Shown in pieces: positions 4,669 through 46,792 of a stretch of DNA of 47,465 nt (the stretch's first letter is position 1; every line of letters begins with the position of its first letter). The stretch covers positions 1 through 47,465 of the forward strand of contig JAUIEA010000012.1 in the NCBI GenBank assembly GCA_030429045.1, read 5' to 3'. The translations under genes were made by a program, and so were the position numbers. The stretch comes from Bacteroidia bacterium. Lineage in GTDB: Bacteria > Bacteroidota > Bacteroidia > Chitinophagales > Saprospiraceae. The notes below the pieces were generated by a model. It did no database searches. It was not told where the DNA came from and saw only the letters and a program-made list of their open reading frames with translations.

Positions 4669-5741
4669 TGCATTCCCTACGCTTCCTGACGCTTCTTCTG
4701 GGCACAAGCTTGCTCTCTATCCAATCCCTGCAGGCACAGGTGACCGGCGGACGCCAGGCCTTCGCTTTTCTGGAACTACCCGTGTCTGCCCGGCTGACAG
4801 CGCTGGGCGGCCAGCTGGTCAGTGCCCGTGATCGGGACGTCACCCTGGGTGCCGGAAATCCGGCCCTGCTCCAGGCCGACATGCACGGCCAATTGAGCTT
4901 CAATCACGCTTTTCATGTCGGTGGTACCGGTAACGGCTATTTTGGCTACGGTCATCATATCCAACCCTGGGATCTGACCGTTCATGGTGGCGTGCGCTAC
5001 ATGCAGTACGGAGATATCCCCTGGCGAGACGAGTTCAACCAGGACCTGGGCACCTTCTCCCCGCGAGAATTGGCTGCACACATCGGTGCCGGTTGGCAAT
5101 GGCAGGAACGGATCAGTCTGGGCATGAATCTGCGGTTTGTCCAGGCCCGTTATGAAGCCTACCAGTCCACTGCCCTTGCCAGTGATATCGGCCTGTACTA
5201 TGAAAACCCGGAGTCCCGTCTGGGAATTGGTGTGGTTTTACAAAATATCGGCGGCCCCCTGACCCGTTTTTCCGATTCTGGAGAACGACAGGGTCTTCCC
5301 TTCAATCCGGTGATCGGTTTGAGCAAGAGACTCAAGTACCTGCCACTACGATTGACCGTATCGGCTCACACGCTTCACCGGTGGAATATCCGGTATGATG
5401 ATCCGGACCTTCGGACCCAAATTCTCTTTCCCGGCCAGGAAGCAGAATCTGAAAACAGCTTTGCGCAAGGCGTGGACAATGCCTTTCGCCATCTGACCTT
5501 CAGTGGGGAATTCCTCTTTGGAAAGACAGAATCCTTTCGGGTTCGCCTGGCCTATGACCATCGGATGCGTCGTGAGATGCTGGTACCGAATTATGGCGGA
5601 CTGGCCGGCTTCAGTGGAGGCTTCGGGTTTCGGGTCTATCGCTTCCATCTGGACTATGGCTTTGGGGTGTACCACCAGGCTGGCAGCTCACATCATCTGT
5701 CCATTTCTACCAACCTCAAGGAATTCTTCCCGTCCATCTAG
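4665..5741 (+). CDS. porQ: Type IX secretion system outer-membrane barrel protein PorQ
   Basis: This 358-residue protein resembles PorQ, the PorV-like beta-barrel of the T9SS attachment complex (PorU/V/Q/Z). PorQ delivers or anchors PorZ, which handles anionic LPS during sortase processing of cargo. It has a signal peptide ending LQAQ, the motif ARLTALGGQLVSARDRDVT, and ALLQADMHGQLSFNHAF near the N-terminus. Long alternating hydrophobic strands follow to the end (DYGFGVYHQAGSSHHLSIS). ATG at 4665 was chosen because it gives a standard signal peptide directly and overlaps the preceding stop as ATGA. The frame is also open upstream to 4611, but that would add a non-signal leader. It faces the YdbT-like gene convergently across 65 bp. 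Confidence 0.87.
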   Translation: MMHSLRFLTLLLGTSLLSIQSLQAQVTGGRQAFAFLELPVSARLTALGGQLVSARDRDVTLGAGNPALLQADMHGQLSFNHAFHVGGTGNGYFGYGHHIQPWDLTVHGGVRYMQYGDIPWRDEFNQDLGTFSPRELAAHIGAGWQWQERISLGMNLRFVQARYEAYQSTALASDIGLYYENPESRLGIGVVLQNIGGPLTRFSDSGERQGLPFNPVIGLSKRLKYLPLRLTVSAHTLHRWNIRYDDPDLRTQILFPGQEAESENSFAQGVDNAFRHLTFSGEFLFGKTESFRVRLAYDHRMRREMLVPNYGGLAGFSGGFGFRVYRFHLDYGFGVYHQAGSSHHLSISTNLKEFFPSI

Positions 5742-13816: not shown

Positions 13817-13824
13817 TATCTTTG
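13817..13824 (+). promoter_or_regulatory. Candidate -7 promoter box for dnaB
   Basis: TATCTTTG matches TAnnTTTG and ends 18 bases before the dnaB ATG. Transcription starting 5-7 bases after the box would give a leader of only about a dozen bases. No clear -33 element is visible. Confidence 0.45.
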
Positions 13825-13842
13825 CCTGACCGATCAAACATT

Positions 13843-15375
13843 ATGGCAGAAGCACCTAAAAAAACAAGAACCGGAACGGAATTCCGCGGTCGCCGTGAGC
13901 GTGAAGCAGACCTGTCCAATCTGGTTTTTGGCAAGGTGCCGCCACAGGCCAGGGATCTGGAAGAAGCTGTACTGGGAGCCATAATGCTCGACAAGGATGC
14001 CCTTCCGATGGTCCTCGAGATCCTCAACCCGGAATCTTTTTACGTCGATGCGAACCAGGAGATCTTCAAGGCCATGCTTGCCTTGTTTGAACACTCCAAG
14101 CCGATTGACCTGCTCACCGTGACGGAGGAATTGAAGCGGATGGGCAAACTGGAGGGGATCGGCGGGCCTTACCAACTGGTCGAACTGACCAATCGCGTTG
14201 CCTCCTCAGCCAATATTGAATTCCATGCCCGGATTGTCGCACAAAAACACATTCAACGAGAGTTGATCCGTGTTTCCAATGTCACCATTCGGGATGCCTA
14301 TGAAGATTCAACAGATGTCTTTGACCTGTTGGACAATGCTGAAGCGGGACTGTTCAAGATCACCCAAACCAATATTTCCAAGAGTTACGAGCCGATCGGG
14401 GCGCTGAGTGGCCTGGCGCTCAAACAGATCGAGGAACTCTCCAAGAAGGAGGACGGCCTGACCGGTGTCCCGTCCGGTTTTCGGGATCTCGATCTTCTGA
14501 CCAGTGGTTGGCAGCCATCCGATCTCATTATCATTGCGGCCCGTCCGGCTATGGGAAAAACAGCCTTTACCCTGAATATGGCCCGAAATGCCGCTGCCGA
14601 ATTCAAAAAGCCGGTGGTGGTCTTTTCCCTGGAGATGGCCAATCTCCAACTGGCCATGCGACTGATCTCGGCTGAAGCAGAAGTGCCGGGAGACCGGTTG
14701 CGCAATGGTCGCTTGCACAATGATCAGGAGTGGGCTCGTGTCCATCGGGCGATCGAAAAGTTCAACGATGTCCCCATCTTTATCGATGATACGCCAGCGA
14801 TCAACATTTTCGAACTCCGGGCCAAATGCCGGCGTCTGCGGAAACAGCATGGCATTGAGATGATCATCATCGACTACCTGCAGTTGATGTCCGGAAGCGG
14901 GGATGCCAAGGGCAATCGCGAACAGGAAGTATCCGGTATTTCCCGTGCCCTCAAGGCCATGGCCAAGGAACTCAACGTGCCGGTTGTAGCCCTTTCACAG
15001 TTGAGTCGGAATGTCGAATCTCGAGGGGGGTCCAAGCGCCCTATGCTCAGCGATCTTCGTGAATCAGGTGCGATCGAGCAGGATGCGGATATCGTCACCT
15101 TCCTGTACCGCCCGGAATATTATGGCATTTTCCAGGATGAAGAAGGCCGGGATACCCAGGGGATGACCGAGGTGATCGTGGCCAAGCACAGGAATGGTGC
15201 TGTCGATACGGTTCGATTGCGATTTATCAAGGAATTCGCCCGATTTACGGATTGGGATGATATCAGCTTTGACGACCTGCCCATGCCTGATCCGATGAGC
15301 GGTAGCGGGGCCATGCCCAATGTCATTACCCGGTCCAGCCGGATGAATGACGATACCTCTGACATTCCGTTTTAA
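13843..15375 (+). CDS. dnaB: Replicative DNA helicase DnaB
   Basis: This 510-residue hexameric helicase unwinds DNA at the replication fork and recruits primase. The N-terminal domain begins after a basic leader (VPPQARDLEEAVLGAIMLD near residues 35-55). The RecA-like domain has Walker A AARPAMGKTAF, VFSLEMANLQLAMRL, Walker B MIIIDYLQLM, ALSQLSRNVE and the arginine-finger segment (SDLRESGAIEQDAD). The acidic, proline-containing tail ends DTSDIPF, a single-stranded-DNA-binding-protein-like tip that is a small oddity. ATG 13843 was chosen over an upstream TTG in the same frame (13822), which overlaps the promoter box. No intein is present. Confidence 0.97.
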   Translation: MAEAPKKTRTGTEFRGRREREADLSNLVFGKVPPQARDLEEAVLGAIMLDKDALPMVLEILNPESFYVDANQEIFKAMLALFEHSKPIDLLTVTEELKRMGKLEGIGGPYQLVELTNRVASSANIEFHARIVAQKHIQRELIRVSNVTIRDAYEDSTDVFDLLDNAEAGLFKITQTNISKSYEPIGALSGLALKQIEELSKKEDGLTGVPSGFRDLDLLTSGWQPSDLIIIAARPAMGKTAFTLNMARNAAAEFKKPVVVFSLEMANLQLAMRLISAEAEVPGDRLRNGRLHNDQEWARVHRAIEKFNDVPIFIDDTPAINIFELRAKCRRLRKQHGIEMIIIDYLQLMSGSGDAKGNREQEVSGISRALKAMAKELNVPVVALSQLSRNVESRGGSKRPMLSDLRESGAIEQDADIVTFLYRPEYYGIFQDEEGRDTQGMTEVIVAKHRNGAVDTVRLRFIKEFARFTDWDDISFDDLPMPDPMSGSGAMPNVITRSSRMNDDTSDIPF

Positions 15376-15445
15376 GACAAGGCAAAACTCTCCGGCCTTC
15401 GTCAGGTTCGATCACGGTTCCTCCTGCTGGGAAAGAAATAGTCTG

Positions 15446-15556
15446 CCTCCCCCGGTTTAGCGCTTCTCGAAGTCTTCTCCATGTTTTCCCGCCGTCGCCA
15501 AACCACCCCCTCATGACGGTATTCGTCTCCGGGTGCGAGTGGCCAGTGGGAGGGGG
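15446..15556. repeat. Composite hairpin repeat, unit A
   Basis: This is a 111-bp unit of a family present six times in full in the window. Its order is CCTCCCCC, GGTTTAGCG (one mismatch to the family), the mini-hairpin CTTCTCGAAG, CGCCAAACC (inverted partner), CCCCCTC, and closing GGGAGGGGG. CCTCCC and CCCCCTC can both pair with the final G-tract, so alternative folds exist. A tail with GCCTGTCAGTCCACCCTC follows and recurs after unit F. Confidence 0.85.
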
Positions 15557-15644
15557 ACATTTGCCTGTCAGTCCACCCTCGGACTCAACCAGGAACCTGC
15601 CCCGGGTTCTCGGGGGAGCAAACGCAGGAACCAGGAATCTTCTG

Positions 15645-15754
15645 CCTCCCCCGGTTTGGCGCTTCACGAAGTCGTCTCCCTGTTTACTCTCCATCGCCAA
15701 ACCACCCCCTCTTGACGGTATTCGTCTCCGGGTGCAAGTGGCCAGTGGGAGGGG
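15645..15754. repeat. Composite hairpin repeat, unit B
   Basis: A 110-bp unit with perfect GGTTTGGCG (15653-15661) and CGCCAAACC (15695-15703) arms. The inner mini-hairpin is CTTCACGAAG, so its loop differs from unit A while the stem is kept. The inter-arm segment is the most diverged copy. Confidence 0.85.
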
Positions 15755-15763
15755 AGTGTCCCT

Positions 15764-15856
15764 CCCGAGTACTCGGGACGGGGGTGGCTATTCACTTGAC
15801 CGCAGGTCATGTGAATAGACGGGGGTGGCCCAACGTGCTCTTTATTGTGAATTTCT
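15764..15856. repeat. Palindromic linker cassette 1
   Basis: This linker joins units B and C. It starts with the perfect palindrome CCCGAGTACTCGGG (15764-15777). A 14-bp stem with one mismatch follows (CTATTCACTTGACC, 15788-15801; GGTCATGTGAATAG, 15805-15818) around a GCA loop. It then has a GGGGGTGGCC box and a short A/T-rich spacer. Confidence 0.8.
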
Positions 15857-15857
15857 G

Positions 15858-15968
15858 CCTCCCCCGGTTTGGCGCTTCTCGAAGTCTTCTCCATGTTTTC
15901 CCGCCGTCGCCAAACCACCCCCTCATAACCGCATCCGTCTCTGGGCTTGAATGTGGTGTAGGAGGGGG
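15858..15968. repeat. Composite hairpin repeat, unit C
   Basis: A 111-bp unit with perfect inverted arms GGTTTGGCG (15866-15874) and CGCCAAACC (15908-15916), closed by GGAGGGGG. Its right end lies 25 bp from the stop of the DUF559 gene. Confidence 0.85.
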
Positions 15969-15992
15969 ACATGAAATTTGTTTTTCGTATTA

Positions 15993-16403
15993 TCAATGCC
16001 CATATTGAAATTTTTCGATTTCAATTTGTTCGATTGTTATTTCCAATGTTCTCACCACTTCACGCAAATCTGAAAGTACTTCCTGATCAGAGAACCGCAG
16101 TACTCTAAAACCAGCTTTTTTTAACACTAATTCTCTTCTCAGATCTTTTTCAAGAACTTCTTCAAATTGATGTGTAAACCCATCAACTTCAATAATAAGA
16201 TGAAGTTCCTTACACATAAAATCAGCAATGTAATTGAGGACAGGGCGCTGTCTTCTAAACTGATAACCTTTCATCATTCTCGCTCTGAGTACATACTTCC
16301 ACAAACAGGCTTCAGCTTTCGTCATATTTCCTCTATTTGAGTGGGCAAACCGTCTTAATCGGAAATTGTAGTGAAAAAAGTTTAGAGGGGAGGCCTTCAT
16401 CAA
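15993..16403 (-). CDS. DUF559 (Vsr/restriction-like) endonuclease-domain protein
   Basis: The 136-residue protein matches the DUF559 family of the PD-(D/E)xK-like nuclease superfamily. It has TKAEACLWKYVLRARMMKGY, FRRQRPVLNYIADFMC, the core LIIEVDGFTHQ and RRELVLKKAGFRVLRFSDQE. The putative catalytic acids are the Asp of IADF and the Glu and Asp of IIEVDG. No methyltransferase, transposase or helicase is adjacent. The gene is clearly AT-richer than its neighbours and sits inside a cluster of hairpin repeats, with a full unit 25 bp downstream of its stop and a centre-deleted unit about 70 bp upstream of its start. This suggests it arrived with, or was inserted into, the repeat cluster. Substrate and role of DUF559 proteins are not well established. 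Confidence 0.88.
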   Translation of the reverse strand: MMKASPLNFFHYNFRLRRFAHSNRGNMTKAEACLWKYVLRARMMKGYQFRRQRPVLNYIADFMCKELHLIIEVDGFTHQFEEVLEKDLRRELVLKKAGFRVLRFSDQEVLSDLREVVRTLEITIEQIEIEKFQYGH

Positions 16404-16472
16404 TGGGTAGTTTGGTGACTAATATAAAACAATTTGTGTTGTATTTATAAGGATAGGTTGGACAGAATCCAG

Positions 16473-16535
16473 CCTCCCCATTTATCCTCATCAAGAAGGC
16501 ACCCATCTCTGGTATGGAGTGGCCACAGGGAGGGG
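16473..16535. repeat. Composite hairpin repeat, centre-deleted unit G
   Basis: The left end CCTCCCC (16473-16479) and the whole right half (CCTCATC through GGGAGGGG, 16528-16535) are present. The paired GGTTTGGCG/CGCCAAACC core is replaced by about six bases. It lies directly upstream of the DUF559 gene start. Confidence 0.65.
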
Positions 16536-16544
16536 AGTGTCCCT

Positions 16545-16638
16545 CCCGAGTACTCGGGACGGGGGTGGCTATTCACTTGACCGCAGGTCATGTGAATAGA
16601 CGGTCGGGGGAGCAAACGCAGGAACCAGGAATCTTCTG
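16545..16638. repeat. Palindromic linker cassette 2
   Basis: Near-identical to linker 1 over CCCGAGTACTCGGG (16545-16558) and the GCA-looped stem (16569-16582 with 16586-16599). It then switches to the AGCAAACGCAGGAACCAGG spacer otherwise found before unit B. This shows that linkers and spacers are shuffled. Confidence 0.8.
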
Positions 16639-16750
16639 CCTCCCCCGGTTTGGCGCTTCACGAAGTCGCCTCCCTGTTTTACCGCCGTCGCCAAACCACC
16701 CCCTCATGATCGCATCCGTCTCCGGGCTTGAATGTCCGGTAGGAGGAGGA
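16639..16750. repeat. Composite hairpin repeat, unit D
   Basis: Perfect inverted arms (16647-16655 and 16689-16697) with the CTTCACGAAG mini-hairpin seen in unit B. The closing G-tract is weaker (GTAGGAGGAGG). It ends about 110 bp before the dienelactone-hydrolase-like gene. Confidence 0.82.
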
Positions 16751-16860
16751 GCAACCAGGCAGTTGAATTCGACAGTCACCCATGGTCGAGTCAGACCCCT
16801 GAAATCTGCCAGGTGGCCGGAAGGAAAATTGATTTTCCGGGCATTCTATACCTTCGAAGC

Positions 16861-17694
16861 ATGACGAATCGACATAGCATCAGCCTGGTTATCACTTTTG
16901 TGGTTGCCGGAACCTTGTTCAGCTGCCAATCCACCCCTTCATCCTCTGAAGCGGGGATGGCAAAGTTTACCACCGACGATACGTTCAAAACCGCTCATGA
17001 AATACCGGAAGAGCTGGATTTCGAGGGCCGGGGAGAAATGGTCGGGTTTCCGACCCCTGATGGAAAAGAAGGGCATGCCTATGTCTTGCATCCCTCTGCA
17101 CCCTCCAACAAGCATCTCCTGGTCATTCATGAATGGTGGGGATTGAATGATCACATCAAGCAGGAAGCAGAGCGATTGTTCGACTCACTGGGTGTTCATG
17201 TATGGGCATTGGACCTGTATGACGGTCAGGTTGCGGCAGACCGGGAAACGGCTGGTTCACTGATGCAAAGTCGGGTACAGGAACGACTGGAATCGATCAT
17301 CAGAGGGGCCTTAGACCAGTGTGGGCCTTCCGCCCGGATCGCCACTACAGGATGGTGCTTTGGTGGCGGGTGGAGTTTGCGCGCATCCATTCTGGCCGGT
17401 GATCGATCCACCGGATGTGTCATCTACTATGGTATGCCGGTTGAAAATGCCCGTGAGCTGGCACCACTAAAGGCCGAAGTATTGGGCTTGTTTGCCAGTC
17501 AGGACAAGTGGATCAATGCGGAAGTTGTCCGCAAATTTGCGGCGCTGTGTCAGGCCACCGGCAAGACATTTACGTATCATTTCTATGAAGCTGATCATGC
17601 CTTCGCCAATCCGAGCAGTCCCCGATTTGATGAGGCATCGGCACAAGACGCAAATCACCAGTCCCTGACCTTCTTGCGGAACAAACTCCAATGA
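16861..17694 (+). CDS. Dienelactone-hydrolase-family alpha/beta hydrolase, lipoprotein
   Basis: This 277-residue protein starts at ATG 16861 with a lipoprotein signal (VVAGTLFSCQ, Cys22), so it is probably tethered to the periplasmic or outer membrane. The alpha/beta-hydrolase body has the dienelactone hydrolase triad: Cys166 in TGWCFGGGW, Asp215 in FASQDKW and His246 in YEADHAF. The conserved IHEWWGLNDHIK (residues 89-100) is also present. The Cys nucleophile and EWWG are diagnostic of the family, which opens lactones or cleaves esters. The physiological substrate is unknown. The frame is open upstream to 16732 through repeat unit D, but that extension is repeat-derived and lacks a signal. 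The kinase gene follows after 40 bp. Confidence 0.9.
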   Translation: MTNRHSISLVITFVVAGTLFSCQSTPSSSEAGMAKFTTDDTFKTAHEIPEELDFEGRGEMVGFPTPDGKEGHAYVLHPSAPSNKHLLVIHEWWGLNDHIKQEAERLFDSLGVHVWALDLYDGQVAADRETAGSLMQSRVQERLESIIRGALDQCGPSARIATTGWCFGGGWSLRASILAGDRSTGCVIYYGMPVENARELAPLKAEVLGLFASQDKWINAEVVRKFAALCQATGKTFTYHFYEADHAFANPSSPRFDEASAQDANHQSLTFLRNKLQ

Positions 17695-17734
17695 CCTCAT
17701 CCCAAGGGGTGTATCTTTACCTACTGGGAGCTGT

Positions 17735-18895
17735 ATGGATATCTATCGCCTGAAAATGATCTGGAAATGGGGACTGGCCCTGGCAGGAATGCTGGTAGTC
17801 GTCCTGTCTCTGCTGGTGATCCGGCAGGTGGTGACGAAGATCAAGGCCTTCGAACATCAGAAAATCGTCTTTTTCAAGACCGCAGTTGAGGATCTCCCCA
17901 GCAATCCGGACAATGCCTCCTTCGTCCTGCATGATGCCATTCTCACGGCGGATCTTCAGGTCCCCCTCATCCTGGTCAACGAGCGGGGAATTATTGAAGA
18001 TGCCCGCAATTTTGGCCCAGAACGTGATACCTCCCGTCAATTCCTGAGCGAACGCCTCCTGAAGATCCAGGAAGAAGGATACCCGCCTGTGGAACTGGCG
18101 GATGGGAAAAAGATCTACTACGAGGACAGTGACCTGGTCGCCAACCTGCGATACCTTCCATTCATCCAGATCGCTCTGGTTCTGGTGCTGATCTTTCTGG
18201 GGTATCTGGGATTCAATGTTTCCAGGCGGGCGGAAGAAAATCGGATCTGGGTCGGTATGGCCCGGGAAACGGCTCATCAGCTCGGCACACCCTTGACGGC
18301 GATCGTCGCATGGGTCGAATATCTCCGCAATCATGCCAGTGGCAACAGTCAGGTCACCTTCGCTGCAACAGAGATCGAGCGGGATGCGGAAAAGCTGGAA
18401 TTGATCGCGGATCGATTCAGCAAGATCGGCTCCAAGGCTGAATTGGAGCCCCACAATCTGCTCACCTGCCTGGATCGAACCCGATCCTATATGCAGGCAC
18501 GGGCACCGAAACGGGTCGAGTTTCATTTCCCTGACCCGACTGCCCCACCTGTCTTTGTCATGATCAATACCCATCTGTTTGAATGGGTGATCGAGAACCT
18601 CCTGCGCAATGCCCTGGATGCGATGGAAGGAGAAGGCACGATCCGCGCGGAGGTCCGTCAGGAAGGCCGATGGGTGATGATCGACATCAGTGATTCGGGA
18701 AAAGGCATTCCCTCCTCTCGATTCAAACGGGTATTCAAACCCGGATACACCACCAAAACCCGTGGGTGGGGACTGGGGCTTTCCCTGGCCAAACGGATCG
18801 TCGAATCCTACCACAAAGGCCGCATTTTTGTCCGTTCGAGTGCTCCCGGTAAGGGGACCACTTTCGGGATCTTACTACCCGTGCCGAAGGGGTGA
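17735..18895 (+). CDS. Orphan two-component sensor histidine kinase
   Basis: The 386-residue kinase has two membrane helices (residues 11-30 and 144-162) enclosing an extracytoplasmic domain of about 110 residues. The cytoplasmic part has an H-box ARETAHQLGTPLTAI with phospho-acceptor His181. It is followed by the N-box ENLLRNALDAM (287-297), G1 DSGKGIP (320-326), F-box FKPGYTT and G2 GWGLGLSLAKRI (344-355). No HAMP or PAS domain is obvious between TM2 and the H-box. The HQLGTPL variant is frequent in Bacteroidota kinases. No response regulator is encoded nearby, so the partner is elsewhere. A near-match box TATCTTTA (17712-17719) precedes the gene. Confidence 0.93.
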   Translation: MDIYRLKMIWKWGLALAGMLVVVLSLLVIRQVVTKIKAFEHQKIVFFKTAVEDLPSNPDNASFVLHDAILTADLQVPLILVNERGIIEDARNFGPERDTSRQFLSERLLKIQEEGYPPVELADGKKIYYEDSDLVANLRYLPFIQIALVLVLIFLGYLGFNVSRRAEENRIWVGMARETAHQLGTPLTAIVAWVEYLRNHASGNSQVTFAATEIERDAEKLELIADRFSKIGSKAELEPHNLLTCLDRTRSYMQARAPKRVEFHFPDPTAPPVFVMINTHLFEWVIENLLRNALDAMEGEGTIRAEVRQEGRWVMIDISDSGKGIPSSRFKRVFKPGYTTKTRGWGLGLSLAKRIVESYHKGRIFVRSSAPGKGTTFGILLPVPKG

Positions 18896-18899
18896 TTTG

Positions 18900-18948
18900 T
18901 TGTTCCTTGTTCCTTGTTCCTTTGTTCCAAGTTCCAAGTTCCAAGTGG
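18900..18948. repeat. Heptamer tandem repeat (TTGTTCC/AAGTTCC)
   Basis: Four TTGTTCC units (one preceded by an extra T) are followed by two AAGTTCC units and a partial one, starting five bases after the kinase stop. This resembles the short tandem heptamers known from other bacteria and may reflect slippage. Confidence 0.8.
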
Positions 18949-19001
18949 ATCCTATGTGCTTGCCTGATTAGGGTTGATCCGAGGATACCAATCTTGTCCG
19001 T

Positions 19002-19054
19002 CCCGAGTACTCGGGACGGGGGTGGCCTAATGTGCTCTTTATCGAGAAGGACTG
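19002..19054. repeat. Palindromic linker cassette 3 (short form)
   Basis: Contains the CCCGAGTACTCGGG palindrome (19002-19015) and the GGGGGTGGCC box, but lacks the GCA-looped stem found in linkers 1, 2 and 4. It leads directly into unit E. Confidence 0.75.
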
Positions 19055-19159
19055 CCTCCCCCGGTTTGGCGCTTCTCGAAGTCGTCTCCTTGTTTTCCCG
19101 CCGTCGCCAAACCACCCCCTCATGACGGCTGGGCTTAAATAAATGACCCATGGGTGGGG
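19055..19159. repeat. Composite hairpin repeat, unit E
   Basis: Perfect inverted arms at 19063-19071 and 19105-19113. The right third is shortened and diverged, ending in GGGTGGGG in place of GGGAGGGG. Confidence 0.8.
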
Positions 19160-19164
19160 AGTGT

Positions 19165-19253
19165 CCCCCGCTGGCGGGGGTGGCTATTCACTTGACCGCA
19201 GGTCATGTGAATAGACGGGGGTGGCCCAACGTACTCTTTATTGTGAATTCCTG
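19165..19253. repeat. Palindromic linker cassette 4 (exchanged palindrome)
   Basis: It has the same layout as linker 1, but the first palindrome is CCCCCGC-TG-GCGGGGG (19165-19180), an unrelated sequence that still forms a perfect stem. The GCA-looped stem (19184-19197 with 19201-19214) is unchanged. Confidence 0.8.
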
Positions 19254-19364
19254 CCTCCCCCGGTTTGGCGCTTCTCGAAGTCGTCTCCTTGTTTTCCCGC
19301 CGTCGCCAAACCACCCCCTCATGACGGCATCCATCTCCGGGTTCGAGTGGCCAGCGGGAGGGGG
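19254..19364. repeat. Composite hairpin repeat, unit F
   Basis: A 111-bp unit with perfect arms (19262-19270 and 19304-19312) and closing GGGAGGGGG. It is followed by the GCCTGTCAGTCCACCCTC tail shared with unit A, running to about 19407. Confidence 0.85.
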
Positions 19365-19440
19365 ACATAAGCCTGTCAGTCCACCCTCACGCTAAACCAG
19401 GAACCCAAAACAAAGGAACCCGGAATTATTCCGAACCAGC

Positions 19441-33002: not shown

Positions 33003-36000
33003 CTACTGGACAAGGATGAACCCTGCCCACTGCAAGGGATCATATCCAAGCGCCCGCATGTCGGCCTGTGCCGCCCGAAAAGCCTCTGGAATGGACATTT
33101 TGTCCTCGAGCCATTTGGTATAAAAAGTCTTCATCAAAAGGGAGGTTGACTCATCAGGCACCTTCCAGAGAGACATGATCAGGTACTTCACACCGGCAAT
33201 ACGAAATGCTCGTTGAAGGCCGTATACACCTTCGTTTCCGTTGATATCCCCGAGTCCTGTCTCACACGCAGACAGCACCACCAACTCGGTGTTGGACAGG
33301 TCCATCTGGCTGATCTCATATGCTGTGAGTACTCCGTCCTCCCCATCCTCCTGTCGCTTCTTCCCCCGCCATCCAGCATTGCCTCCTGCCATGATGAGTC
33401 CAGAACGCAGAAGGGGATGCTCGGAGACTTTGAATACAGGCTCCTGATCGGACCGGCGTGCAGGGGCTTCTTTCGGATCCGGGAAAAAATACCCGTGGGT
33501 TGCCAGGTGAATGACACGGGGGGAGCGATGCACCCCTGAACCAAGATCCTTGAAGGCCGTTTCTGATGCATTCTCCTCTGTATAGGTCGTTACCTTCCAG
33601 CCTTGCTGTGTGGCCAAACGGGAAATTCCATCCACCTCTTTTCCAGTTGCCGGCAATGTTGTCCAGCTACTCCCTCTCAAGGTCGAATCGGCCAGCGCGA
33701 AATGAATTTCACTTTGTGACCGATAGGCCACCATAGGACCCTCCGTCCAGCTGGTATCCGATGCATAGGCAATATCACCGAACAATACCGCAGTAGAATC
33801 ATTTGAATGTTCCAACAATGGGACAACCAATTGCCGGGTGCTATTCACAACAACTACATCCATCTGGTCAGCCAAGATCTCGTTCTCGCTCAACGGGATA
33901 GCACCCAGATTGATCCGATGTAATAATCCAGATGGGGAGACATATACTCTACTTGTATTTGCTAATGCCGATTCCAATGGCTTCCAGATCAGATCAGCAA
34001 GGGTGCGTGAAGATGGATCCTCCAACATGGGCTCATCTCCAGGTAGTGTATAAAGGAAGTTGGCTAAAGTAGACTTTCGACGGTCCATCGGGGAAAGAAG
34101 GCTATCCAGTGTACGTTCCTCAAAGAGCGTTATGAACGCCGGACTTTCCATCCCGGGACAAAGAACCAGTGCAGCGTAGAGAATGCTGTCTGTGGCCGCT
34201 TTTTCAGAGTACCGGAAATGGACAAATTCTACAGCTGCTTCTTCGGGCTGAAGAGCTGATTGAACCTCCTGCCAAGAAACCTGCCGTCGGGCATCATCAA
34301 AACCGGCAACAACACGTGTCAGTTCCTTTTCCATCTCCTCCGCCTCGATTTCCAATTGTTTAATTTGAACACTATCCCTTTTGCTCATTATTTGAGCATA
34401 TTGGGTGGCCAGTCGGCGATGATGGCCCACCCAACGAGAATACAAATCAGAATTTACCTCATCTAGCATTGCCAACCTCTTTAGTTTTGCCGAGGCCTGA
34501 AGAAGAAAGCCTTTGTAGAATAGACTGTTGTCATAGCATGTGGTTGTTAAGGAATTCCTCCTCGTCAATTGAATAAACGACAGGGTATTATCCTGGTCTT
34601 TTGTAAACCTGACCAGATAGTTATTCAACTCCTTCTCTGAAAGATGACTTTCGGCATTTTTCAGAAGGTGCCGATTGACTTCGGTGAGTTCAGTAAAAAG
34701 AAGTTCAGCTTTTTCAAGATGGCCCATATTCAAGTACATATCCGCCATACTTTTTAAAAAATTAGCATAATATGGATGATCCTTACCAAGTGATTTCAAC
34801 AAGATTGGCATAGATTCTAAATGGAGCGACTCAGCTTCTTGATATTGACCCAGATTAGAATATACAATTGCTAGGTCATTCAAATTTATTGCGTAATCAA
34901 CCCCCGCTTTTCCAAATTTTCTTTCAAATATTGCTATAGCCTCAAGGAACAACAACCGAGCTTTTTCAAGTTGATGCATGTAAGTATATAATATCGCTAA
35001 ATTATGTAGGCCCTGAGCATACTCAGGATGATCTATTCCAAAGCTATTTTTTCGAATTGAAATGGACTCGATGTAGCATTCTTCAGCCAAAATATATTGG
35101 CCAGTATTTCGGTAAAATCTACCAATATTTTGCAACGCAGCAGCACAATTGTGATGTTCCTTACCCAATGTTTTTCTCCATATCGATAAAGCTTCTTGAT
35201 AAAAATATTCAGATTCTTCGTTTTGACCTAGATCTGTATATAAAGACCCAAGAGCATTTAAAGCTACAGCATAGTTAGGGTGTTCCTTACCTAAGAATTT
35301 TTCAAAAATTTCCGTGGCATCGAGCAAAATCCGTTCCGCGCTTATGTAATTACCTATTTTATAATAAAAATTTCCAAGGTTGATTTGACATTCCGCAAAT
35401 AATGGATGACTTCTACCTACGGTTCTCTCAAGTATTTCACTCACTTCAAGAAAGGCAAACTCTGCTTTCTTATATAGTCCCATTTCTTGATACAAAATTG
35501 CCAAATTATCAAGACTAGATGCATATTCATGATGATCTTTATTGTAAATTATTTCCTTAAGTGACAGGCACTCGATAAACATTATCTCTGCCTTTTCATA
35601 CCACCCCATATTCATATAAATACGGCCTAGGTTGTTCAGAATTGCTACATAAACAGGTTGTATTTTATCCTTGGAATTCCCTAGTATACCTTTTGCTTTG
35701 ATATATAAGCTCTCAGCTCTTTCATAATCGCCTAATTCACTATAAAGACTTGCGAGGTTATTCAAAATTGATGCATACTCAGGGTGCTCAATGCCCAATG
35801 AATTTTCGCAAATGGATTTAACCTCAAGCCAAAATAATTCTGCTTTCTCATATTTCCCCATTTTATAGTATAAATGACCTAGATCACGCAAGCTTTGGAT
35901 ATAGTCAGGGTGATTCACCTCCAGAACTTTTTCCCGAAAAGCTTTTACTTCAATCCACAGTGGCTCAACTTTTTCATATTGGCCTAAACGCCAATAAAGA

Positions 36001-36491
36001 CCAGCCAAGTTTATCAAACTCCACAAATAATCATTATGCTCTTTACCTAATGCTTTTTCTCTGACATCTTTGGCCAGTAAAAAAAAAGATTCTGCTTTTT
36101 CATTTTGGCCTAAACTTTGGTAAAGCACAGCCAGATTATTCAAACTCCATGCATATTCCGGGCTTTCAGTACCAATTGTCTTTTCTCTGATTTCCTTTGC
36201 TTCGAGGTACCGCTTCTCTGACTCGGGATAGTCACCTTTAAAATACAAAACTCTCCCAGTGTTAAAACAACAACTTCCATACGCTGCCGATTCCCTGCCT
36301 AAGACTTCCAAGGCAATGGATTCCGCATCTGAGCTTACTTCCAAAGCTTTTGGATAATTCTTCTCAGCTGTCAGGCCTCTGGAGACTTGGATGAGACTGT
36401 CCACAACCCTGACTGCAATTAGTGAATCAAATTGCTGCCCTATCAACATAGTTGGAAGGAAAGCAAACACGAATATCCAAACACGAATCAT
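33003..36491 (-). CDS. Exported TPR-CHAT protein (caspase-like peptidase)
   Basis: The 1162-residue protein has a signal peptide (VFAFLPTMLIGQ). About thirteen kinesin-light-chain-like TPRs of 42 residues follow (roughly 50-640), each with the pattern G.EHP.YA..LNNLA.LY..LG.Y..AE. A linker with coiled-coil character comes next (near 690-750), then a C-terminal CHAT domain. The likely catalytic dyad is His999 (IHLATHGYFF) and Cys1076 (LSACETG). CHAT domains are clan CD cysteine peptidases; cytoplasmic relatives act in defence complexes such as Craspase. The signal peptide argues for a periplasmic or exported location instead. The gene starts 72 bp after the L-domain/SprB-like gene and may be cotranscribed with it. 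The TPR part is AT-rich (one sampled line 30 percent G+C), the CHAT part is not (57 percent). Confidence 0.93.
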   Translation of the reverse strand: MIRVWIFVFAFLPTMLIGQQFDSLIAVRVVDSLIQVSRGLTAEKNYPKALEVSSDAESIALEVLGRESAAYGSCCFNTGRVLYFKGDYPESEKRYLEAKEIREKTIGTESPEYAWSLNNLAVLYQSLGQNEKAESFFLLAKDVREKALGKEHNDYLWSLINLAGLYWRLGQYEKVEPLWIEVKAFREKVLEVNHPDYIQSLRDLGHLYYKMGKYEKAELFWLEVKSICENSLGIEHPEYASILNNLASLYSELGDYERAESLYIKAKGILGNSKDKIQPVYVAILNNLGRIYMNMGWYEKAEIMFIECLSLKEIIYNKDHHEYASSLDNLAILYQEMGLYKKAEFAFLEVSEILERTVGRSHPLFAECQINLGNFYYKIGNYISAERILLDATEIFEKFLGKEHPNYAVALNALGSLYTDLGQNEESEYFYQEALSIWRKTLGKEHHNCAAALQNIGRFYRNTGQYILAEECYIESISIRKNSFGIDHPEYAQGLHNLAILYTYMHQLEKARLLFLEAIAIFERKFGKAGVDYAINLNDLAIVYSNLGQYQEAESLHLESMPILLKSLGKDHPYYANFLKSMADMYLNMGHLEKAELLFTELTEVNRHLLKNAESHLSEKELNNYLVRFTKDQDNTLSFIQLTRRNSLTTTCYDNSLFYKGFLLQASAKLKRLAMLDEVNSDLYSRWVGHHRRLATQYAQIMSKRDSVQIKQLEIEAEEMEKELTRVVAGFDDARRQVSWQEVQSALQPEEAAVEFVHFRYSEKAATDSILYAALVLCPGMESPAFITLFEERTLDSLLSPMDRRKSTLANFLYTLPGDEPMLEDPSSRTLADLIWKPLESALANTSRVYVSPSGLLHRINLGAIPLSENEILADQMDVVVVNSTRQLVVPLLEHSNDSTAVLFGDIAYASDTSWTEGPMVAYRSQSEIHFALADSTLRGSSWTTLPATGKEVDGISRLATQQGWKVTTYTEENASETAFKDLGSGVHRSPRVIHLATHGYFFPDPKEAPARRSDQEPVFKVSEHPLLRSGLIMAGGNAGWRGKKRQEDGEDGVLTAYEISQMDLSNTELVVLSACETGLGDINGNEGVYGLQRAFRIAGVKYLIMSLWKVPDESTSLLMKTFYTKWLEDKMSIPEAFRAAQADMRALGYDPLQWAGFILVQ

Positions 36492-43419: not shown

Positions 43420-46400
43420 CTACTGCAACAACACAAACCCGGCCCACAAATACGGGGAGTCGGGATATTGTTGGCGGAGATCCTTTTGTGCTGAATAGAA
43501 AGCTTTGGACAGTGACATTTTGTCCTGGATCCAATAGGTATAAAATTTTGTAAAGAACTGCATGGACACCTCATCATTCACCTTCCAAAGAGTCATGATC
43601 AGGTTCTTCGCACCAGCGATACGGAAAGCACGTTGCAAGCCATAGACCCCCTCAGTACCGATTATATCTCCTAAGGCGGTCTCACAAGCAGATAGGACCA
43701 CTAATTCGGTATTCCGAAGGTCCATCTGTGCGATCTCATAGGCGGTGAGAACGCCGTCATCCCCTTCTCCCTGATGACTTCCAGCCAACCAGGCCGGTGA
43801 AGAACAGGCCATGAGTAGGCCGGACCGGATGAGCGGATTGGTTGCTGAGCGATATGCATTATGGTCTGCTACTAATTGATCCTCTTCCTTAGGGTCCGGG
43901 AAGAAATATCCGTGGGTGGCAGCATGAATGATCCGGGGAGAGGGCCCTACTGATCCGAGCTCCTTGAACGCAGTCTCTGTTGCCATGTATCCAGTATCCA
44001 GCTGGACACCATACCCATTTTGTTCCAGGATCTCTGCTATTTCCAGGGATTCCACTTTTGAATGGGGCAGATAGCGGAGGACGGAACCGCGGTAGGTGGA
44101 GTCCATCTCCTCTTCTTCTTCCAAGCCACTATTCCGATAAACGATTAAGTCTTTTCCTTCAGCCCAAGTAGTATCGCATTGGTAGTGGATACCACCTACT
44201 ACAAAATCCGAGGCAGTCACAAATTGATTCTTCTCAAGTTTCATTTCAGCCAACTGATGTGTACTTCCCAATAATACCAACTCATATTGATCTCCAATTC
44301 GGGATACTTCAGAAACAGGCACCATGGCTAAATTCACCTTATGCATCTCCCCAGATGGAGAAAAATATATTTTGGCTTTTCCACTTAAAAATAAATCAAT
44401 AGGCTCCCATAATACAGAATATAAGTCCCGATGTTCATTCAAGCTACTAATTGAATATACTTGGGCAATTTTAGACCTTGAGCTCAAAATACCAATTATA
44501 TCCCGTAGTGAATCCTCATCAACAAGTGGTACAAATTTGGGGTCAACCATCTCACCAGTCAAAACAAAAGCACCATAATAAACACCTCCATCAATGCTCC
44601 CAAACTTAGTAAACTCAATAATGGCCTCGTTATCAGCCAATAATTCACGATAAAAATCAATAGAATACCCATCAGGATCCTTACTAGAAACCAACAATAA
44701 TCTTGCTATTCTCTTTTCAAGAAAACTAATATTTTCATTTAATTTCACAAATTCCAAACTATCGTATGATGCACTTACAATCGCATTTGCAAACTGACCT
44801 CTAAATTCTTTCAATTGATCCTTCAATTCAACCAACTCTCCAGAATCTCTATTAGCCATAATAATCCTATTCGCTATATCTAATAGAAAGTTCTTTTTAT
44901 ACAAAATATAATTAAATCCATAGTGCAATAATTTACTATAATATATGCATGAATCATTCGATGCTCTAATTAGACTCATTAGATACCCTTCATCCTCATC
45001 AAATAATTGTACATACTTCTCCAATTGATCACTTGACATAAATGATGCAGATTCATTCATGCTATTTTTGTCTAAATCAATTAGATCGATTATGCTTTTC
45101 ACATATTCGTCCCAATTACTTAATTTATAATTAACTTTCAGCTCCCCTATTAGTCCTTTCCTGTAAAATTCATGTGAAGTAATATTCAATGAATCTCCTA
45201 AAATATCAAGTGCGCGTTTGAAAAGCGAATCCGCTAGGATCAAATTGTTAAATTTCAGATATACTTCACCCAGATTTATTAGCCCTCCAGCATAATCCGC
45301 ATGAACACTGCCGATAATTTTCTCCTTTATCTGTAATGATTTCTGAATAAAATTAGACGCTGAATCCAATTCCCCTTTAGCCATTAATACATTGCCAATA
45401 TTGTTCAAACTTCCCGCATAACTAATACTATTCTCTCCTTCACTAATTCTTCTAATTTCAAGTGCCAACTTGTAATACTTCATGGAAATATCATATTTTC
45501 TTTGTTCCATATACACCATGCCGAGATTATTATATGAATTAGCTAACCTTGGATGCATGTCGCCCAATAACCCAATTTGAAGATGGATTGCTTCTATCAA
45601 TAATGGCTCCGCTCTTTCAAAATTTCCTGTATTTAAATAAAGAACCGAAAGATTATTCAATGTCCTTGCATAATAGGGATTTTCCACTCCCAGAGAATCA
45701 TGCCGAATCTTTAGTGCTTTTAAATACAATGGCTCCGCATTTTTATAATCCCCTTTTCGATGATAATTTATCGCCAAATTATTGCAAATTAATGCCACCT
45801 CAAGGCTATTTATTCCATACTTACTTGATTCAATATTTAGCAATTGGAGGTAAACTTTTTCAGCCCTCCGCAAATCACCCATGGTTGAGTAGAGACCTGC
45901 CATATTCGTTAAACTTTGCAAGCAATCAGAATGATCAATATTCAATTTCCTTAATCGTATTTTGAATGCCTCATTATGCAGACTATCTGACAAATTATAA
46001 TTTCCTACATACATAAGAGATAATGCTAGATTATTCAAACAAGTAGCATACTCTAAGTCATCTGTTCCCAAAATGTTTTTCCTAATTTCAAGCAATTCCG
46101 TATAATATTTTATTGCCTCATCCTCATTCCCAGCGTCGCTGTAATAGTTGCCAAGGTTATTGAGACTACCTGCATATACCAAATTATTTTTACCGAGTAT
46201 TTTTTCACGAATACGCTTGGACTCCAAGTAAAGAGCTTCAACCTTTTGAAGTTCATTCATTTCGACATACAATACCCCTAAATCATTTAAGCTTTCGGCA
46301 TAGTCCAGATTTTCCTTACCCAAATAATCTAATCGGATGTTTAATGCAATATGATACCATGGCTCACTTGATAAATAATCCTTTTTATGATAAAATACAC

Positions 46401-46635
46401 GTCCAAGATTGAAGCAAGCACTTGCATAAAGAGCAGAATCAATAAGGTTCTTTTTCGATACATTTTCAGCTAGGAATCCAAAATTTAGTGCTGAATCGTA
46501 ATTCCCTTCCTCTGTAAGAATTCTCGATAAATTAACTAGGCTATCAACTCTATTCACCACTTCCAAGTAGTTTTCACTTTGGGATTGAGAGCTAAAAGGA
46601 ACAAGAAATATTAAAATTATAATTATATATTTCAT
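43420..46635 (-). CDS. Exported TPR-CHAT protein (caspase-like peptidase), paralogue of 33003-36491
   Basis: From ATG 46635 the protein has 1071 residues. A signal peptide (IIIILIFLVPFSSQSQS) is followed by about eleven 42-residue TPRs (LNNLGNYYSDAGNEDEAIKY, LNNLSVLYLNTGNFERAEPL). A helical linker comes next, then a CHAT domain with His908 (IHAATHGYFFPDPKEED) and Cys984 (LSACETALGD). The last 170 residues are strongly similar to the other CHAT protein (EGVYGLQRAFRIAGAKNLIM against EGVYGLQRAFRIAGVKYLIM), while the TPR part differs much more. The TPR region is very AT-rich (a sampled line 28 percent G+C against 47 percent in the CHAT part). A second possible start lies five codons upstream at 46650. 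It is transcribed ahead of the surface-protein genes. Confidence 0.93.
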   Translation of the reverse strand: MKYIIIILIFLVPFSSQSQSENYLEVVNRVDSLVNLSRILTEEGNYDSALNFGFLAENVSKKNLIDSALYASACFNLGRVFYHKKDYLSSEPWYHIALNIRLDYLGKENLDYAESLNDLGVLYVEMNELQKVEALYLESKRIREKILGKNNLVYAGSLNNLGNYYSDAGNEDEAIKYYTELLEIRKNILGTDDLEYATCLNNLALSLMYVGNYNLSDSLHNEAFKIRLRKLNIDHSDCLQSLTNMAGLYSTMGDLRRAEKVYLQLLNIESSKYGINSLEVALICNNLAINYHRKGDYKNAEPLYLKALKIRHDSLGVENPYYARTLNNLSVLYLNTGNFERAEPLLIEAIHLQIGLLGDMHPRLANSYNNLGMVYMEQRKYDISMKYYKLALEIRRISEGENSISYAGSLNNIGNVLMAKGELDSASNFIQKSLQIKEKIIGSVHADYAGGLINLGEVYLKFNNLILADSLFKRALDILGDSLNITSHEFYRKGLIGELKVNYKLSNWDEYVKSIIDLIDLDKNSMNESASFMSSDQLEKYVQLFDEDEGYLMSLIRASNDSCIYYSKLLHYGFNYILYKKNFLLDIANRIIMANRDSGELVELKDQLKEFRGQFANAIVSASYDSLEFVKLNENISFLEKRIARLLLVSSKDPDGYSIDFYRELLADNEAIIEFTKFGSIDGGVYYGAFVLTGEMVDPKFVPLVDEDSLRDIIGILSSRSKIAQVYSISSLNEHRDLYSVLWEPIDLFLSGKAKIYFSPSGEMHKVNLAMVPVSEVSRIGDQYELVLLGSTHQLAEMKLEKNQFVTASDFVVGGIHYQCDTTWAEGKDLIVYRNSGLEEEEEMDSTYRGSVLRYLPHSKVESLEIAEILEQNGYGVQLDTGYMATETAFKELGSVGPSPRIIHAATHGYFFPDPKEEDQLVADHNAYRSATNPLIRSGLLMACSSPAWLAGSHQGEGDDGVLTAYEIAQMDLRNTELVVLSACETALGDIIGTEGVYGLQRAFRIAGAKNLIMTLWKVNDEVSMQFFTKFYTYWIQDKMSLSKAFYSAQKDLRQQYPDSPYLWAGFVLLQ

Positions 46636-46792
46636 ATATTGATATACCATCTAAGTTAATTATAAAATCTCCTGCAAATTTTATGCGGAACAGAGATATT
46701 CAACTCTTGAACAGACCAAAGCACAAGCCAAAAGTACTTTAGACCTATTCTTCAAAAGTAAAGAATCCCCAATCATTGTACAATCATTTCAC

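Follow-up and report, generated by a model that had tools for sequence, protein, structure and literature searches.

Do DUF559 nuclease genes and the palindromic repeats around them form a mobile element? A candidate homing-like system in bacteria

Why does a gene for a small nuclease stand among palindromic repeats, and do the gene and the repeats belong together? The question arises from a 47,465-nt stretch of DNA (the window), contig JAUIEA010000012.1 of a Bacteroidia bacterium of the Saprospiraceae (GCA_030429045.1), in which a DUF559 (PF04480) nuclease gene lies in a cluster of palindromic units. The window is contig C243 of our genome G000 (4.27 Mb, 256 contigs); genomes, contigs and loci are cited below by handles of this kind (G, C and L). 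The original prediction for this DNA held that the nuclease occupies the place that a RAYT transposase has among REP elements, and that it may mobilise the repeats. The arrangement is strongly supported, as the bracketing extends far beyond this genome, whereas the nuclease-driven mobilisation is something we still infer. On balance, we consider it probable that DUF559 and the palindromes bracketing it are one small mobile element with a homing-like behavior. Its basic unit, here called R, would be an inverted pair of hairpins with C/G-tract tails, in the BoxC/PIT/TM layout at most loci, and the element would occur as R alone, as R with a DUF559 gene inside, or as DUF559 between two copies of R.

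Across many groups of bacteria, DUF559 genes tend to have palindromic repeats on both flanks. PF04480 is present in 28 of 61 genomes of the window's family and in 170 of 296 genomes of the phylum Bacteroidota, which supplied 60 regions, none longer than 16 kb, around DUF559 matches (60 of the first 61 phylum matches without a prior locus, taken best first from a listing of the best matches, one contig-edge match being skipped; two of the 60, L081 and L128, yielded no motif). A second, named set comprised the best 80 of 104 relatives of a single DUF559 domain. Because it was drawn in this way the set leans to one DUF559 type; its members come mostly from Proteobacteria, Chloroflexi, Nitrospirota, Desulfuromonadales and others, with one (L173) from Bacteroidota. 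When the left and right 450-bp flanks of each gene were compared, blind to sequence type, a repeat common to both sides was found at 113 of 131 DUF559 loci and at 13 of 227 control open reading frames (ORFs; at most four per region, 90-220 amino acids, more than 2.5 kb off); one of the 60 and eight of the 80 loci had too little flank to be counted. By set, at E ≤ 1e-3, the flanks shared a repeat at 49/59 Bacteroidota and 64/72 named loci (controls 10/137 and 3/90), and at E ≤ 1e-5 at 33/59 and 55/72 (controls 3/137 and 3/90). DUF559 had been predicted to lie near repeats beyond chance, and the contrary case, that it is usually distant, is false by these counts. In the window, the gene (15993..16403, minus strand) is placed between palindromic unit 3 (15854..15970, plus strand; unit search and flank comparison), which adjoins its 3' end as the left bracket, and a short, "collapsed" unit (~16472..16537, plus strand, edges by eye), which lies upstream of its start as the right bracket. 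The 450-bp flanks of this gene have in common a 268-nt direct repeat with 82% identity (E 1e-67). By the same test, brackets are also present at the near relatives L131, L118, L106 and L071.

C/G-tract hairpins were concentrated at the same genes, with 2.25/kb within 250 bp of DUF559 versus 0.02-0.06/kb beyond 2 kb in Bacteroidota, and 3.67/kb versus 0.06-0.12/kb far off in the named set. They were present on either side at 40/60 Bacteroidota loci and on both sides at 17/60, compared to 9/152 and 0/152 control ORFs (90-200 amino acids, more than 2 kb off), and at 60/71 and 42/71 named loci, respectively. The palindromes at most DUF559 loci share the layout of the E. coli BoxC (PIT, TM) repeat, which we defined as a pyrimidine stem, a loop, a purine stem and a second purine tract able to pair with the same pyrimidine stem. 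This three-block layout occurred within 300 bp on either side at 51/59 Bacteroidota and 69/71 named loci, one of the 60 and nine of the 80 having too little flank; with the flanks shuffled ten times, the means were 0.6 and 3.2. It occurred on both sides at 31/59 and 42/71 loci (another count of BoxC-like palindromes gave 50/71 for the latter, and 42/71 is used here). Density was 3.3/kb and 4.5/kb within 250 bp in the two sets and 0.03-0.16/kb beyond 1 kb. The nearest palindromes had their purine tails toward the gene in 81/104 cases upstream and 73/100 downstream, and 53 of the 81 loci with palindromes on both sides had inward-facing pairs, in an orientation analysis that took in 135 of the 140 loci.

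The gene is also found inside host proteins. In 20 of the 60 Bacteroidota regions, DUF559 lies in an open frame of at least 360 amino acids (that of L086 crosses masked bases), and a Pfam scan of 16 of these 20 found DUF559 together with other domains in all 16. The hosts include MetH, LeuRS, methylmalonyl-CoA mutase, UvrD-type helicases, HsdM, Eco57I-type and ISP-type proteins, HisF, HemF and an M23 peptidase; DUF559 is N-terminal rather than central in HisF and HemF. The linkers around DUF559 are translated palindromes, e.g. SPLPLGEDLGEG in L047. No intein family was among the Pfam matches (E ≤ 0.001) in the 16 scanned proteins, and transposases in the bracketed stretches were looked at only through these scans and that of the window gene. 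The ratio of nonsynonymous to synonymous substitutions (dN/dS) of DUF559 was low, at 0.06-0.28, in five of eight pairs; saturation prevented its calculation in the other three.

LeuRS was searched in 81 genomes and MetH in 76, and the fetched loci were read alongside the DUF559 loci. At fixed codons of both proteins, relatives have empty, solo-R, half-R and filled forms, and the palindrome is seen there single, as an inverted pair and around DUF559 (half R, full R, hairpin-DUF559-hairpin). The sequence of a complete solo R is GCCTCACCCC..hairpin..spacer..hairpin..GGTGAGGC, or nearly so. The 49 rows for LeuRS site b consist of 31 empty (14-15 amino acids), seven solo or half R (one degenerate), five filled (three loci) and six of other kinds; the 30 rows for the MetH site consist of 19 empty, one solo, one unclassed of 26 amino acids and nine filled (seven loci). 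Five loci are counted twice in these rows (L115/L288, L129/L289, L097/L257, L258/L304 and L281/L303), and the filled-to-empty ratios are not rates, because the filled loci of LeuRS site b and four of the seven filled MetH loci were found via DUF559. In genus g124, the MetH site of G513 is filled, that of G141 has a solo R, and those of G503, G235 and G511 are empty; in genus g234, G394 has an empty LeuRS site b, where G427 has a full R and G448 a half R. Seven Azospirillum replicons had filled sites only. Among the rows of other kinds at LeuRS site b, locus L290 of G181 has a 146-amino-acid insert without a DUF559 motif. A candidate target-site duplication, ATAGAA at LeuRS site a, was dropped; I/V-E residues flank the loop in relatives without R.

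The window locus itself permits a comparison of occupied and unoccupied alleles between species, as do LeuRS and MetH. The site is delimited by a DnaB-helicase-like gene (13822..15375, plus strand) on the left and a dienelactone-hydrolase-like gene (16864..17694, plus strand, start codon uncertain) on the right, both named from sequence. It is occupied by DUF559 in G000. In sister G355 (dnaB piece 96% identical) the interval between the two genes holds, by eye, three units and no DUF559, and in sister G354 (95% identical) the equivalent site holds one short unit and no DUF559. In G357 and G356, no hydrolase-like gene was found within the 1.5 kb examined downstream of dnaB. Across the five genomes of the genus, window-type units gave 11, 9, 1, 0 and 0 matches, in parallel with 2, 1, 0, 0 and 0 DUF559 genes; the 55 relatives searched outside the genus gave zero matches. 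The pairing of the GGTTTGGCG unit with the window DUF559 was seen in G000 only; nine matches to the unit occur in G355, which lacks this DUF559. The second DUF559 of G000 (contig C239) is bracketed by other cassettes, CCTCACCCC-hairpin-spacer-hairpin-GGGGTGAGG, and its G355 orthologue has similar brackets. Since the window units and the C239 cassettes differ, one genome has two repeat families, each around its own DUF559.

The window gene encodes a 136-amino-acid protein with a strong match to PF04480 (E 1e-29, 103 bits; gathering score 20.6). Its invariant acidic positions are D61 and E72. It had been described as foreign-looking; its G+C content is 0.367 against 0.53-0.55 for the neighbor genes on both sides, and a distant window gene (43420-46650) is about as GC-poor (0.374). 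That gene and the one at 33003-36491 are both large, and from sequence their parts were named tetratricopeptide-like and CHAT-like. An AlphaFold2 (AF2) model of the nuclease is confident, with a predicted local distance difference test score (pLDDT) of 89.6 and a predicted template modelling score (pTM) of 0.83. Foldseek matched the model to 3hrl (NGO0050 of Neisseria gonorrhoeae, E 4e-8) and, second, to the homing endonuclease I-Bth0305I (E 3e-3), and a profile search agrees (3r3p, 1.1e-5). As modelled, the protein has a Vsr/EDxHD-like fold, which is that of a known homing endonuclease family. Membership of YcjD in the PD-(D/E)XK superfamily was already noted (PMC1189080), a Thermosynechococcus DUF559 gene has been termed an EDxHD homing endonuclease (PMC9403480), and DUF559 is described as occurring alone or fused to a methyltransferase (PMC1829167). 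A defense function was dropped as a reading; PADLOC gave weak matches only (E 0.003 and 0.026).

If these observations reflect one process, a compact DUF559 protein of the Vsr/EDxHD fold would nick or cut at or near a copy of R that lacks the gene, and repair from an R-DUF559-R copy, with R as homology arms, would insert a copy of the gene. A solo or half R would be restored when the two brackets recombine or part of the element is deleted. Such a homing-like model would explain the two-sided brackets, the solo and half R at the same sites, the tolerance inside proteins and the homing-type fold. We infer both that the copying is driven by the cut and that DUF559 is what makes solo copies of R move.

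Several points weigh against this proposal. Cutting of R by DUF559 is itself a presumed step, no strain-level gain or loss was seen in the genomes compared, and the LeuRS and MetH sites, which lie in variable loops and were compared between different species, yielded no clean target-site duplication. The recombination hotspots described in Legionella pneumophila, three copies of one DUF559-bearing segment (PMC12308824), speak for the proposal, but the segment also has a transposase, which could be the mover there. The control ORFs were mechanically called, and these and RAYT loci were the only comparators for bracketing. A BoxC-like palindrome was not found at 12 of the 135 loci, including the window's two nearest relatives, whose brackets differ in sequence and fail the layout test but pass the shared-repeat test. 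Under the strict BoxC-like grammar, the units of the window give no match even with loops of up to 11 nt allowed, because their loops are longer; the order of blocks is similar. The repeats had also been predicted to go with DUF559, and this is borne out in part: the CTCACCCC..CCCTCTCC repeat was found in 59 of 296 Bacteroidota genomes, with a DUF559 match in 47 of these 59 versus 123 of the other 237 (Fisher p 1e-4, uncorrected for kinship), but 12 of the 59 repeat-bearing genomes have no DUF559. Two of these 12, G082 and G145, carry 23 and 20 such repeats. Finally, palindrome similarity follows nuclease similarity across genomes when the sets are pooled (Spearman 0.33, permutation p ≤ 0.002), whereas a comparison of Bacteroidota with the named set gave no such correlation (0.012, p 0.40). 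The pooled signal may therefore be the shared ancestry of whole cassettes, and we make no claim of coevolution between nuclease and palindrome.

An HUH transposase of the RAYT/TIRYT type might instead move R in trans, with DUF559 as cargo caught between two copies of R. RAYT-like (PF01797) proteins are present in 18 of 20 chosen genomes, with four in the window's genome, and some terminal inverted repeats (TIRs) of TIRYT elements share a GGGGWSAS motif that GGGGTGAG fits (PMC3733652). However, BoxC-like palindromes were found within 300 bp of none of ten RAYT loci (for one of which the flank on one side was just 173 bp long); these loci (L308-L317, the window's genome included) carry, by eye, other palindromes. 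RAYT-like genes thus have palindromes of their own, so that two palindrome-nuclease pairs coexist in one genome. Furthermore, PF01797 had no match in the R-rich genomes G260 (12 repeat matches, DUF559 present) and G082, and bracketing is much commoner at DUF559 than at other small ORFs. We regard this account, the main rival, as unlikely.

DUF559 could also be a Vsr-like nuclease for repair, or for resolving structures, that is retained beside triplex-prone palindromes in order to process or protect them; the palindromes would arise by slippage and be immobile. Its fold is consistent with this, as is the phenotype of the DUF559-domain protein VsrA of Caulobacter, reported to be needed for the SOS response in cells without a cytosine methyltransferase (PMC12907096), which we also count in favor of the homing-like element, and BoxC motifs are reported to form triplexes in vitro and to be associated with local instability (PMC4666352). 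Yet this leaves unexplained DUF559 and palindromes inside MetH, LeuRS, UvrD and other proteins, as well as the empty, solo and filled states at fixed codons, and a repair enzyme acting in trans has no need of a place between its substrates. It seems quite doubtful to us. The least probable account is that DUF559 is an ordinary, horizontally acquired accessory gene that entered by illegitimate recombination at fragile palindromes and has no role in mobility: palindromes promote rearrangement, and in G000 a single intergenic region holds the units clustered together with further repeat families, but this does not explain the specificity for DUF559 over other small ORFs, the inward orientation of the tails, the recurrence in distant groups or the low dN/dS in the five computed pairs.

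Returning to the homing-like element, its widest form would take in E. coli. BoxC/PIT repeats were noted in E. coli in the 1990s and have now been reported from more than 260 bacterial genomes (PMC4666352). That 2015 study describes no mobility gene near E. coli BoxC copies and places the MG1655 copies always between genes, and its main text does not contain the word endonuclease. In K-12, a BoxC copy that reads CCCCTCGCCCCTCTGGGGAGAGGGTTAGGGTGAGGGG lies between ycjD, annotated as DUF559, and fabI, and some E. coli BoxC copies form inverted pairs; a gonococcal DUF559 homologue, not equated here with NGO0050, has BoxC-like palindromes on both sides. It is conceivable, at somewhat less than an even chance, that DUF559 and the BoxC/PIT palindromes are the autonomous and non-autonomous halves of a bacteria-wide superfamily of transposase-free mobile elements. 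Their compact nuclease, with its homing fold, would propagate through cuts in palindromes, and the element could persist within the reading frame of essential proteins, LeuRS for example; on this view, the BoxC repeats of E. coli would be a ycjD element in non-autonomous form. As a further point against the homing-like element, the layout test found no BoxC-like palindrome on the opposite side of K-12 ycjD, and presence or absence of ycjD is tied to the eef operon and phylogroup (PMC12817139). Strains of E. coli that lack ycjD were considered as empty sites and rejected, as the eef operon occupies the place (PMC12817139), and BoxC copy number versus ycjD presence in 60 of 5385 matching E. coli records was confounded by phylogroup and not used.

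The window's palindromic units span 15442-19366. The original prediction counted six full units and one collapsed unit; the repeat family and the collapsed unit stand, and the full units number five plus one partial, because the unit at 19052 keeps its 5' half and has a degenerate 3' half. In order along the plus strand, a long unit runs from a C-tract through a GGTTTGGCG/CGCCAAACC hairpin, which includes a mini-hairpin, to a second C-tract, followed by a loop and then a G-tract. Unit 1 (15442..15558) has this order with GGTTTAGCG in place of GGTTTGGCG. The predicted nested arms were exact in the other five of the six units (chance expectation 0.00): besides unit 3, unit 2 (15641..15754), unit 4 (16635..16750), the partial unit 5 (19052..19165, the search match being 19052-19129) and unit 6 (19251..19366), all on the plus strand. 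A whole-genome search with one 117-nt unit gave 11 matches, six in the window, three in contig C50 and one each in C99 and C177, the last of only 22 nt. The alternative folds predicted for these units are feasible, in that the single G-tract can pair with either C-tract, but only unit 3 folded clearly better than its own shuffles as single-stranded DNA (z -2.5); the other six unit stretches did not (z +0.9 to -1.1). Thus the arms are conserved, and unusual fold stability is unsupported for most of the units. An Rfam scan of the window at gathering thresholds found zero families.

Other repeats lie among the units. A second palindromic family (GTCCC..GGGAC / GGGGGTGGC) is, by eye, interleaved with them in G000 and sister G355 (window ~15755-15833, 16536-16603, 18998-19033 and 19158-19230; L016 ~5470-5535; L219), and several of its copies have an inner arm resembling TTCACTTGACC..GGTCATGTGAA. 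A third palindromic element, an apparent nested insertion (by eye), lies within a unit in L016 (~5335-5410) and L225; in L016 its place is between the CGCCAAACC arm and the second C-tract. A minisatellite-like GGAACCAGGAA repeat stands beside the units at ~15580-15640, 18900-18945 and 19395-19425, and CAAGAATCAAGA-type repeats like it occur in frame at LeuRS site a in other Bacteroidota (L295, L300 and L301).

In the portion of the open-access literature available to us, we found no report linking DUF559 with palindromic repeats. Linking DUF559, a common family of unknown function, with BoxC/PIT gives each a testable role, and the origin of BoxC repeats can be asked in E. coli K-12, which carries both ycjD and BoxC. 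The link may also account for nuclease-containing inserts in some bacterial LeuRS, MetH and UvrD proteins. If our reading is true, it would add a class of elements whose palindromes are spread by a nuclease of the homing type instead of a transposase, and the element would merit a class of its own if DUF559-driven movement were proved.

Among known systems, BoxC/PIT/TM repeats share the three-block layout with most palindromes at DUF559 loci and also form inverted pairs in E. coli, but here DUF559 is the gene linked to the palindromes, and in other bacteria some copies are found within coding genes (compare PMC4666352). The window units also differ from BoxC in their longer loops. We know of no nuclease gene inside Rickettsia palindromic elements (RPEs). 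These elements are, like the copies described here, palindromes in frame in protein genes (PMC3733652). The Legionella hotspots likewise have a DUF559 gene in a repeated, recombining segment, which also has a transposase, and palindromes are unmentioned in its description (PMC12308824). Vsr endonucleases and Caulobacter VsrA have the nuclease fold and domain in common with DUF559; the genes described here differ by their repeat brackets. EDxHD homing endonuclease genes such as that of I-Bth0305I share the fold and profile, the place inside conserved genes and the empty or filled state of a site among relatives. Unlike them, the DUF559 insert shows no splicing domain, stays in frame and is bracketed by palindromes, and the 136-amino-acid window protein lacks the extended DNA-binding region that I-Bth0305I is described as having (PMC3943268). 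REP/REPIN sequences and RAYT genes (REPtrons, PMC3733652) also combine a palindrome, an inverted pair and a bracketed nuclease gene, and some REPs are intragenic. Here, the bracketed gene is a PD-(D/E)XK/Vsr-like DUF559 rather than an HUH tyrosine transposase, the palindromes differ, and the RAYT genes of such genomes are not bracketed by R (10/10). The element that we propose works like REP/RAYT pairs and like homing genes, without the RAYT enzyme of the former and outside the intron or intein setting of the latter.

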